Source: Affinundibacterium amnicola (GTDB taxonomy: Bacteria; Pseudomonadota; Gammaproteobacteria; Burkholderiales; Burkholderiaceae_D). Taken from it: 64,000 bases of DNA. The position numbers and the translations under genes were made by a program. Of the stretch, positions 29,541 to 37,887 are shown in pieces; the stretch's first letter is position 1; every line of letters begins with the position of its first letter. Location: the NCBI RefSeq assembly GCF_014284275.1, contig NZ_JACOFU010000002.1, positions 62,001 to 126,000 of the forward strand, written 5' to 3'. The notes under the pieces were generated by a model, which was not told the DNA's origin, ran no database searches, and saw only the letters and a list, made by a program, of their open reading frames with translations.

Positions 29541-29625
29541 TGGTGCCGACGACGAGACTCGAACTCGTACAGCTTTCGCCACTACCCCCTCAAGATAGCG
29601 TGTCTACCAATTTCACCACGTCGGC
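29541..29625 (-). tRNA. tRNA-Leu (anticodon GAG)
   Basis: An 85-base class II tRNA with encoded CCA. The acceptor stem GCCGACG pairs with CGTCGGC; the anticodon stem CTATC/GGTAG encloses the loop TTGAGGG, giving anticodon GAG for CUC/CUU leucine codons. A long variable arm and the T-arm (GTTCGAGTC) are visible. Located between secG and nuoA, a common arrangement in betaproteobacteria. Confidence 0.97.
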
Positions 29626-35114: not shown

Positions 35115-36653
35115 CTAAATCTGAGGATTCAACTTCTCAACCTTAGAGTGCAATTTATTCAAAGCCGAAATGTAAGCCTTCGCAGAAGCCACCACGATAT
35201 CAGGATCCGCACCCACACCATTGACGATACGGCCAGCTTTACTTAATCGTATAGTTACCTCACCTTGCGATTGCGTGCCAGCTGTGATCGCGTTAATTGA
35301 GAACAGTAACAGCTCTGCTTCACTCTTTACTTCGGATTCAATTGCACCAACGATAGCATCGACCGCGCCATTACCTTGCGCGATGCAGGATTTTTCTTTG
35401 TCGCCTATCGTCATCACTACGACCGCCGAGGAGCGCTCACCCGTTTCTGAATGCTGACTAATGGACACCAGACGATAGTGATCGGCATCGTGTGAATGCT
35501 CTTCATCCGCAACAACCGACATAATGTCTTCGTCGAATATTTCAGATTTTTTATCGGCAAGTTCTTTAAAACGTGCGAAGGCGGCGTTGATTTCAGTTTC
35601 CGATTCCAAGGCAATCCCGAGCTCTTGCAAGCGCTGCTTGAAAGCGTTACGCCCTGAAAGTTTGCCGAGAACGATTTTATTGGCACTCCAACCTACATCT
35701 TCCGCACGCATGATTTCGTAGGTGTTGCGCGCTTTCAAAATGCCGTCTTGATGAATACCGGAGGCATGAGCAAAAGCATTGGCACCGACGATCGCTTTAT
35801 TCGGCTGCACAGCAAAGCCTGTAATTTGCGAAACCATTTTCGAAGTCGCCACAATTTGCGTAGTATCGATTCCAATATCCAAATTGAAGTGATCTTTACG
35901 TGTACGTACCGCCATCACGATTTCTTCCAATGCGGTATTCCCTGCACGTTCACCGAGGCCGTTGATCGTGCATTCGACTTGGCGCGCACCACCGATCATC
36001 ACGCCCGCCAAGGAATTCGCTACCGCCATGCCTAAATCATTATGGCAGTGCACCGACCAAATTGCCTTATCGGAATTAGGAATGGTTTCACGCAAACGCT
36101 TCAATGTACTACCGTACAACTCTGGAACGCCGTAACCAACCGTATCCGCAAAATTAATGGTCGTTGCGCCTTCTTTAATCACCGCCTCAATCACACGGCA
36201 AAGGAAATCAAAATCAGAGCGACTTGCATCTTCCGGGCTAAATTCCACATCGTCAGTAAATTGTCGTGCGAAACGAACTGCTTGAATCGCTTGCTCCAAC
36301 ACTTGATCAGGGCTCATACGCAACTTCATTTCCATGTGCAAAGGTGACGTCGCGATGAAAGTATGAATACGTTTGCGCTGCGCTTTTTGCAAAGCCTCGG
36401 CGGCGCGTGAAATATCTCTGTCATTCGCACGCGACAAAGAACAGATAATTGGTTCACGTACAGCAGCGGCAATTGCTTTAATCGATTCAAAATCACCAGG
36501 AGAAGCGGCAGCAAAACCCGCTTCGATCACGTCGACTTTCAAACGCTCTAGTTGGCGAGCAATACGCACCTTTTCATCCTTAGTCATTGATGCGCCAGGG
36601 GATTGTTCGCCGTCACGCAAAGTCGTGTCGAATATGATGAGTTTGTCTGCCAT
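35115..36653 (-). CDS. leuA: 2-isopropylmalate synthase
   Basis: 512 residues from the ATG at 36651-36653, which has a strong GGAGG six to seven bases upstream; a longer frame from a GTG at 36674 would overlap that site. N-terminal TIM barrel with [13 protein letters not shown] (catalytic and metal-binding residues), HCHNDLG and NGLGERAGN, and a C-terminal LeuA dimer/allosteric domain (about 390-512) that binds leucine for feedback inhibition. Condenses acetyl-CoA with 2-oxoisovalerate, first step of leucine synthesis. Upstream lies a leucine-rich small ORF that may be a leader. Confidence 0.96.
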
Positions 36654-36716: not shown

Positions 36717-36801
36717 TTAAAAAAATTGAGTAAAACTCGATGACTTGAATAGATCTTTCCCGCCCCTTGCAAGACGCACACGGGTGAGAGACTACTCAAG
36801 T
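36717..36801 (-). promoter_or_regulatory. Candidate attenuator-like structures before leuA
   Basis: Reading leftward, ACTTGAGTAG (36792-36801) can pair with CTATTCAAGT (36743-36752; ten pairs, one wobble) or, alternatively, its TTGAGTA part with TACTCAA (36726-36732), which is directly followed by seven T. A weak local hairpin GAGT-TTT-ACTC lies before the same T-run. Mutually exclusive pairings ahead of a T-run and after a Leu-rich ORF resemble an attenuator, but the stems are weak. Confidence 0.35.
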
Positions 36802-36817
36802 TGTGGGGTAATGGGAT

Positions 36818-37009
36818 TTAGCGCGCGAGCGCTAGTAGCGTGTTCGCTAGAGACAATGCTAGTAGAGATGCCAGGATAGCGGCAACTGGTAATGCCAACG
36901 ACAAAAGCAGACCGGAGCGATCTGCTTTAATGAATGCTTTTTGAGCATATGATGTCGTGGATGGGAATTTCATGGAAAAGACTATAAGCGGGATTCCACA
37001 AAAGCGCAA
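36818..37009 (-). CDS. Leucine-rich small ORF upstream of leuA (leader peptide or small membrane protein)
   Basis: 63 codons from a TTG at 37007-37009 with GAGGGCGAG just upstream, starting 14 bases after the pssA stop; an internal ATG at 36971-36973 would give 51 codons but lacks a Shine-Dalgarno sequence. The last 32 residues contain 13 leucines, of which five are encoded by CTA, clustered in the last 18 codons. It ends about 165 bases before leuA. Two readings are possible: a leucine-sensing leader peptide controlling leuA, or a one-helix membrane protein made with pssA. I recognise no homologue. Confidence 0.4.
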   Translation of the reverse strand: MRFCGIPLIVFSMKFPSTTSYAQKAFIKADRSGLLLSLALPVAAILASLLALSLANTLLALAR

Positions 37010-37023
37010 GAGCTCGCCCTCAA

Positions 37024-37887
37024 TTATTTCTTAATGTCCTCGGCTTCGTCATGGTGTGCCTCTGGTGTCAACTGCACCAAGCTCACAGGGCGGCCTTTGC
37101 GCCAACGCCACAGCAGCAACACATAGCCAGACAAAGCGTAAATAACAAACAAAGCGAATAAGACTTTTGGCGGATCACTCACCACCGCGACGTAAGCTAA
37201 CACAATCAAAAATGGCGCAATGAAAGGCACTGAGCGCTTCAAGTTCACATCTTTAAAGCTATAAAATGGCACGTTCGTCACCATCGTTAAACCAGCAAAC
37301 AAGGCGACTGCCCAAGCAAACCAGCGCACTTCAACACCAGGAATCGCCAAATCATCCATCAACAAGATAAATCCTGCGACTAAAGCTGCAGCAGCGGGAC
37401 TTGGTAAACCTTGGAAGTAACGTTTGTCTACCACGGTAATGTTTGCGTTAAATCGTGCCAAGCGCAAAGCCGCACCAGCGCAATACACGAATGCAGCCAA
37501 CCAACCCAATTTACCCATACCTTTTAAGGCCCATTCATAGGCAATCAAAGCTGGCGCAACGCCGAACGACACCATATCTGACAAACTGTCATATTGCGCG
37601 CCAAATTCACTTTGTGTATTAGTCATACGGGCAACGCGACCATCTAGGCTATCCAAGACCATCGCCGCAAAAATCGCTAAACCAGAATGTTCAAACTTTT
37701 GATTCATTGCCATGACGATGGCGTAGAAACCGCAAAACAATGCTGCCGTCGTGAATGCGTTCGGCAGCAGATAAATGCCGCGTGACGGCTTACGTGGAAC
37801 GCCAAGTGGTTCTCCATTATTTTTTCTCGCGCCACGAGGAAACAACTTAAAACTACCTTTAGGTTTGCGATTTTTAACTGAACTCAT
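37024..37887 (-). CDS. pssA: CDP-diacylglycerol-serine O-phosphatidyltransferase
   Basis: 287 residues, membrane enzyme of the CDP-alcohol phosphatidyltransferase family. The family motif DGX2ARX8GX3DX3D is seen as LDGRVARM then GAQYDSLSD (about residues 80-102). Several hydrophobic helices follow. Makes phosphatidylserine, the precursor of phosphatidylethanolamine. The partner gene psd is not in this window. No clear Shine-Dalgarno sequence precedes the ATG. The gene runs towards leuA. Confidence 0.95.
   Translation of the reverse strand: MSSVKNRKPKGSFKLFPRGARKNNGEPLGVPRKPSRGIYLLPNAFTTAALFCGFYAIVMAMNQKFEHSGLAIFAAMVLDSLDGRVARMTNTQSEFGAQYDSLSDMVSFGVAPALIAYEWALKGMGKLGWLAAFVYCAGAALRLARFNANITVVDKRYFQGLPSPAAAALVAGFILLMDDLAIPGVEVRWFAWAVALFAGLTMVTNVPFYSFKDVNLKRSVPFIAPFLIVLAYVAVVSDPPKVLFALFVIYALSGYVLLLWRWRKGRPVSLVQLTPEAHHDEAEDIKK

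Follow-up and report, generated by a model that had tools for sequence, protein, structure and literature searches.

A leucine-rich leader peptide and covarying RNA hairpins upstream of leuA suggest a leucine-responsive attenuator in Burkholderiales

The window, that is the whole stretch of 64,000 nucleotides that was analysed, carries on its minus strand the gene for 2-isopropylmalate synthase (leuA) downstream of a gene for a CDP-alcohol phosphatidyltransferase, which is called pssA here after the first-pass annotation of this DNA, and between the two lie a small ORF rich in leucine codons, its promoter and a series of RNA hairpins (Table 1). The ORF runs from an ATG at 36973 to a TAA at 36820-36818, and 164 nt were counted from its stop codon to the leuA ATG (36653), in agreement with the small gap that the annotation had claimed. 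The annotation had started the ORF at a TTG at 37009, which would give 63 amino acids. Since this TTG is the TTG of a conserved -35 box, the start was placed at the ATG at 36973 instead, and a leader of 51 amino acids is the most likely product.

Table 1. Features of the leader region and the flanking genes (positions in the window).
Feature	Position	Strand	Remarks
pssA, CDP-alcohol phosphatidyltransferase, upstream neighbour	37024..37887	(-)	Pfam PF01066
-35 box TTGCGC of leader promoter	37004..37009	(-)	TTGCRC ahead of TATAGT in 37/39 genus loci
-10 box TATAGT, 17 nt spacer	36981..36986	(-)	TATAGT in 39/39 genus loci
Leader peptide ORF	36818..36973	(-)	51 aa, MKFPSTTSYAQKAFIKADRSGLLLSLALPVAAILASLLALSLANTLLALAR; probably leaderless; ATG 7 nt after -10
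Hairpin H0 (AAAGCAGATCG-CTC-CGGTCTGCTTT)	36904..36928	(-)	Inside ORF; 3' arm holds first Leu codons of cluster
Terminal tandem CTA CTA Leu codons	36833..36838	(-)	LL within last 8 residues in 135/142 leaders
Hairpin H1 over last codons and stop (UAGCGC...GCGCUA)	36819..36834	(-)	97.1% of cells paired; double-sided changes in 3/6 pairs
C-rich, G-poor linker, candidate rut site	36802..36817	(-)	Directly behind leader stop
Outer helix H3, 36801-36792 with 36752-36743	36743..36801	(-)	72-74% of cells paired; double-sided changes in 9/9 pairs
Inner hairpin H2 (CCC-g-UGU-7 nt-GCA-a-GGG)	36764..36784	(-)	96.1% of cells paired; double-sided changes in 6/7 pairs
leuA Shine-Dalgarno GGAGG	36663-36659	(-)	
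leuA, 2-isopropylmalate synthase	35115..36653	(-)	NCBIfam NF002087, 892.6 bits vs cut-off 729

The richness in leucine and CTA codons that had been claimed for the ORF was confirmed on the letters of the window: the last 32 leader codons contain 13 leucine codons, five of which are CTA. At the leucine frequency of the window (9.7%) at least 13 leucines in 32 codons have a binomial probability of 3.9×10−6, and 13 were reached in just two of 14502 segments of 32 residues (32 window CDSs used). At least five CTA among 13 leucine codons have a probability of 1.1×10−4 at a CTA fraction of 4.1% (61/1501 leucine codons in the window CDSs). The annotation had proposed a genome-wide count of this fraction, and the rarity of CTA was borne out as counted over the genes of the window.

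The conserved -35 and -10 boxes indicate that the leader has its own promoter, shared by its relatives. In all 100 leaders with a recognised -10 box, a TTGNNN motif was found 15-19 nt ahead of it. In 95 of 106 leaders from the order the ATG follows the -10 hexamer at a distance of 6-7 nt and in five at 4, 5 or 8 nt; in the remaining six, of which four had a wrongly chosen start, the -10 box went unrecognised. Given that the -10 box is only 6-7 nt from the ATG, we infer that the leader mRNA is leaderless, with transcription starting at or beside the leader ATG. The annotation had suggested that a leader coupled to the translation of pssA controls leuA; the leucine leader for leuA was retained and the coupling was given up, as a promoter of its own precedes the leader and an adjacent pssA was not found in part of the loci. 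A promoter between the ORF and leuA had been named as an observation that would speak against the annotation's reading: the promoter that is conserved precedes the ORF, and a consensus scan found no site on that strand between the ORF and leuA, which is weak evidence since the leader promoter, conserved as it is, likewise escaped this generic scan, whose silence elsewhere therefore means little.

Leader ORFs with clustered leucine codons were found in 106 loci, where the length drifts between 24 and 66 amino acids, the N-terminal part is not conserved between genera, and the leucine codons beside the stop persist while the residues outside the leucine cluster drift. The alignment of the pssA-leuA gap from relatives, proposed in the annotation, gave what was predicted for a leader, i.e. 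conserved leucine codons, covarying stems and drift in length and in the other residues, and the doubt that the ORF is long for a leader was removed by relatives that carry versions of 24-37 amino acids with the same layout. Judged from these comparisons, it is nearly certain that the small ORF encodes a leader peptide. The 35 leaders of the genus (Undibacterium) are 29-66 amino acids long and contain 339 leucine codons among 1357, of which 157 (46%) are CTA as compared with 4% in the window CDSs. CTG was the most used leucine codon (144/262) in 33 leaders of other families, which means that the rare CTA is a trait of the genus and not of the element. Outside the window's family LLR was found near the end in 68/69 leaders from 29 families; 55/69 end in LLRxAR plus at most two further residues, and the exact form GLLLR(P/L)AR fits 16/69. 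Within the family the leaders end in LLVR in 24/73 and in LLR in 17/73. The stop codons of the 106 leaders were TAA (90), TGA (12) and TAG (4). Two loci, L001, which coincides in position with L002, and L026 (77 nt upstream), were excluded before the genus loci were compared. Four loci with a wrongly assigned start (L162, L172, L192 and L197) were kept in most counts over the 106 loci and excluded from the synonymous-codon shuffles described below.

Hairpin H0 was represented by 27 distinct best hairpins in the genus leaders, with a stem of at least 7 bp in 25 of them and letters that vary on both sides. H1 persists from family to family with peptide ends as different as LAR, PAR, VRAH, ASAH, RRR and LGR, and outside the family it was apparently rebuilt with other letters and other peptide ends (both by eye), as expected for a hairpin under selection. 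The clearest hairpin was H2, in which ACCC/GGGU, AUCC/GGAU and GCUC/GGGC were all seen. The main stem of the annotation, 36801-36792 with 36752-36743, was present with 10 pairs, one of them G-U, and is contained in H3, which is weaker than H2. In an alignment of 72 matches (71 distinct) 86.8% of the cells were paired and 18/22 pairs had a double-sided change. The covarying stems that had been predicted for a leader were recovered as 133 double-sided cells and 18 pairs versus 52.1 cells and 11.0 pairs in shuffles; in slid controls the counts did not exceed 10 pairs and 41 cells. Given that this alignment was fitted to the model, these counts lean towards the model. An unfitted genus alignment (A1), made from 32 of 34 usable stretches (L003 and L008 were left out; L010, L016, L017, L019 and L040 gave none), had 89.5% paired cells and double-sided changes in 8 pairs and 29 cells versus 5.6 and 10.3 in shuffles; RNAalifold predicted H1 and H2 from it and not H3.

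When the leaders were compared with synonymous-codon shuffles, the leader end folded better (p≤0.05) in 19/33 genus leaders and in 5/37 and 5/30 leaders elsewhere; for the part with H0 the numbers were 14/33, 5/37 and 6/30, respectively. These folding predictions support selected RNA structure in the genus, and do so weakly outside it. A further pairing, of the C run behind the stop codon with the GGGU of H2, was rejected: in the register named it was formed in 64.8% of cells versus 68.4% in shuffles. Slid by +1, it was formed in 72.7% of cells with eight double-sided cells.

The linker behind the stop codon forms together with 36801-36792 a core, CCCACAAYUYGWGUAG, that is conserved in the family and looser outside. 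In the 106 loci the first 16 nt after the stop have a mean C content of 0.49 and a G content of 0.08, and the first 28 nt have 0.42 and 0.11; in 36 further loci the linker has 0.41 C and 0.10 G, with C above G in 35 of the 36. The linker's mean excess of C over G is reached by 1.7% of background 28-mers. The predicted mean unpaired probability of positions +3 to +20 behind the stop is 0.71 as compared with 0.44 for the rest of the leader RNA; the linker is predicted to be less paired than the remaining leader RNA in 101/105 loci and has an unpaired probability of at least 0.7 in 51. RNA that is rich in C, poor in G and little structured has the look of a Rho loading site, and a stretch of this kind behind the leader ORF is what was found here. 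This resemblance is the reason why Rho is favoured in the model below, and the C-richness fits other single-stranded roles too.

Model R1 gave matches in 63/293 genomes of the family (10/40 genera). In the order Burkholderiales, from which 399 genomes in 164 genera were drawn, the core model R2 matched in 39 genomes (27 genera) and the core model R3, built from 99 sequences with L181 included, in 110 (58 genera); under stricter filters 289/399 genomes had no R3 match. The leader was found upstream of leuA in 33 of the 34 R2 matches read outside the family. The remaining one, L181 (G353, f2), lacks a separate leader rich in leucine and has, ahead of leuA, a linker-like core (CCCCCAATTCGAGTAG) that immediately follows the stop codon of pssA; it was excluded from the leader, codon, pairing, terminator, Shine-Dalgarno, shuffle and linker counts. 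R3 gave 71 matches in the order beyond those of R2; 36 were read, and each of them is followed by a leuA, which was found by tblastn in 33 cases, 98-334 nt from the core, and by family scan as a yeast-type leuA in the other three. A recognised -10 box and an ATG leader were present in 29 of the 36. One R1 match without the layout, L105 (g38), was excluded.

Taken from sequence comparison, we consider it probable that the leader is a leucine-responsive, ribosome-mediated attenuator of leuA and, if it is an attenuator, that the chance of Rho being the terminating agent is about even or slightly better. Transcription would begin at or beside the leader ATG, and a ribosome loaded on the leaderless end would pass H0 and reach the leucine-codon cluster that adjoins the stop codon and H1. 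If the supply of Leu-tRNA suffices, the ribosome would reach the stop and leave, H1 would close, and the C-rich, mostly unpaired linker would be exposed to Rho, so that the transcript would be ended before leuA, with H2/H3 or an equivalent hairpin just beyond the linker. Under leucine shortage a ribosome would stall on the CTA/CTG cluster, block the closure of H1 and shield the approach to the linker, and RNA polymerase would read on into leuA. Several observations speak against this model: the first leucine codons of the window's cluster lie about 30 codons ahead of the stop, and a ribosome stalled there would therefore not shield the linker; most of the order genomes gave no match and leuA can do without the element; some lineages have a terminator-like hairpin; the synonymous-codon shuffles are weak outside the genus; and L181 has the linker-like core without the leader.

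A classical attenuator, in which H2/H3 or the small GAGTTTTACTC hairpin together with the seven T would terminate transcription and AGUAG would be the switch partner of the leucine codons, is an unlikely reading. It agrees with the covariation of H2/H3 and with the pairing CUACU:AGUAG, which is formed in 89.2% of genus cells and is matched by eye in some other families, where AGCAG meets CUGCU; however, double-sided changes of the pairing were not seen in the genus, and entire genera such as g5 lack it. As a universal antiterminator the pairing of leucine codons with the linker was rejected, since it is missing in several genera in a survey made without shuffle control (L178 had no anchor in it). 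Intrinsic terminators between leader and leuA occur near the chance level, in 7/106 loci versus 4.7 expected and in 5/36 further loci versus 2.4 (expected from 20 letter shuffles per locus), counts that are too low given that the scan missed L162, where a terminator was seen by eye. In this locus (g19) a strong hairpin followed by TTTTT lies between linker and leuA, in the place of H2, as in a textbook intrinsic terminator. Terminator-like hairpins with a U run were also found in L172 among the 106 loci, in L237 and L212 among the 36, and in others, and some lineages may have a classical terminator version. The seven T that the annotation had pointed to are present in the window (36725-36719) but are not conserved, being lost in the nearest relative L003 and in L004. 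Neither this run nor 36726-36732, which had been named as an alternative partner of the main stem and as part of a weak terminator stem, is conserved in relatives. The small GAGTTTTACTC hairpin lies at 36724-36741, between H3 and leuA, and is common to the relatives L005, L006 and L008. By its anatomy the leader counts as a leucine leader attenuator, though it was not placed among the classical ones, given that a general intrinsic terminator was not found.

Control at the level of translation, as in the actinobacterial LEU element, would mean that the leucine codons or the leader structure sequester the leuA Shine-Dalgarno, and this has a rather small chance of being correct. The Shine-Dalgarno is predicted to be on average more paired than not (0.30-0.44 unpaired), and its predicted accessibility shifts by more than 0.3 between ribosome positions in 9/32 loci of other families, e.g. 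L193. Against this, such a shift was predicted in 4/73 loci of the window's family (means 0.37 and 0.36), and the stretch between H3 and the Shine-Dalgarno varies freely in length and letters when relatives are aligned. Judged through this accessibility, which in the family hardly depends on ribosome position, sequestration was rejected as a general mode, and the folding predictions make translational control unlikely, though less so in the nine other loci with a shift.

For trpL of Sinorhizobium, a small RNA or peptide that is released after attenuation is reported to act in trans. A leader acting mainly in this way, as a leucine-regulated small RNA or peptide, would explain the strongly conserved CCCACAAUUYG, and both the linker core, which few stretches in the family match in conservation, and the peptide end kept in the 29 outside families are compatible with it. 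We regard it as very improbable: the peptide end shifts by eye where H1 was rebuilt, so that codons and H1 explain much of the conservation, and the loci read lie upstream of leuA with a core that is looser outside the family. That the ORF encodes a one-helix membrane microprotein located by chance before leuA, a doubt raised in the annotation and in line with the hydrophobic Leu/Ala-rich end of the window's copy, can practically be dismissed given the variable length and N-terminal part, the lack of any Pfam or NCBIfam match for the three leaders scanned, and the RNA structure selected in the genus at H1. Rfam gave no gathering-level match at the leader, neither to T-box nor to other leader families, and two weak unrelated matches (E up to 5); the sole gathering-level match in the window was a tRNA gene (RF00005) at 29544-29625 on the minus strand.

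Attenuators in proteobacteria were reportedly treated by Vitreschak et al. in 2004. Enteric leuL and trp-type attenuators have a leader peptide with clustered control codons, their own promoter, hairpins and a U-tract terminator, and tnaC is a case of Rho-dependent control through a leader ORF. The enteric leu attenuators are among the nearest described cases, as far as the accessible part of the source goes (PMC6123439). The element found here resembles the enteric leu and trp-type systems in its clustered control codons, its own promoter, its position upstream of a biosynthetic gene and the hairpins around codons and stop, and differs from them in having no general U-tract terminator, a start codon 6-7 nt behind the -10 box in an apparently leaderless mRNA, and H1 on the stop codon followed by a C-rich, mostly unpaired linker. 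In the actinobacterial LEU element before leuA, the available text proposes a pseudoknot whose base is formed by pairing of a leucine run with the leuA Shine-Dalgarno (PMC1262725), and LeuL1 of Streptomyces lividans is described as leaderless in the portion consulted (PMC8079986). As far as these excerpts describe them, the two share with the present element a leader peptide with a leucine run before leuA, leaderless in S. lividans, and no obvious terminator, whereas the hairpins that covary in the present element are located far ahead of the leuA Shine-Dalgarno. Salmonella speF orf34 is, in the text available, a leader ORF with consecutive control codons that can be linked to Rho, which acts when orf34 is not fully translated, while high arginine acts via RNA decay (PMC6386406). 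On the same excerpt, both systems have a short leader ORF with control codons in succession and pausing tied to the ON state, and both lack an intrinsic terminator; they differ in the amino acid sensed, the likeness is one of layout, and in the present case Rho is a putative factor.

In nine of the loci scanned (L172, L204, L207, L209, L214, L225, L233, L237 and L238) the leuA behind the leader has its best score with yeast-type models (TIGR00970/PRK03739-like) and not with the bacterial type. The presence of the leader before two types of leuA suggests that the control region was either retained when the enzyme was replaced or gained on two occasions, and that such a region can persist after a change in the type of enzyme it controls. 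More tentatively, with a likelihood somewhat below even, the leaderless peptide, H1 over the stop codon and the C-rich linker may jointly gate Rho in an undescribed element of the order Burkholderiales, an attenuation without intrinsic terminator that was kept or re-acquired before two leuA types. Leucine attenuation is a textbook example from enteric bacteria, and the findings point to a second, widespread design of it in Burkholderiales, most of which would escape a search for U-tract terminators, and to a testable case of possible Rho-linked amino acid sensing with a role for a run of rare CTA codons. Among the matches listed in searches of the open literature no report of a Burkholderiales leuA leader was found, and novelty is limited to that scope. 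The covariance-model core can also serve to annotate small ORFs of the kind that Pfam and NCBIfam left unrecognised, as with the three leaders that were scanned.

The family loci without an R1 match show what the region looks like without the element. Among 40 that were read, leuA lies 36-148 nt behind pssA in 24, so leuA can do without the element, and a diverged element was seen by eye in three; the comparison indicates that the element is often lost. Within the genus the core gave no match in L017, L019 and L040 and a weak match in L016. In L016, L017 and L019 (G032, G036 and G030) a TTGCAC/TATAGT promoter is kept and the leucine-rich leader and core are degraded or gone, and these loci are, judged from the remaining promoter, recent losses of the attenuator. 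In L132 and L133 (g30) a TATAGT promoter-like site lies upstream of leuA, though leader and core were not found. Class-wide, R3 matched in 4/370 genomes including that of the window; of the other three matches one does not precede leuA and two do, and L216 (G971, f143) and L218 (G792, f154), which belong to other orders of the class, may carry related elements ahead of leuA.
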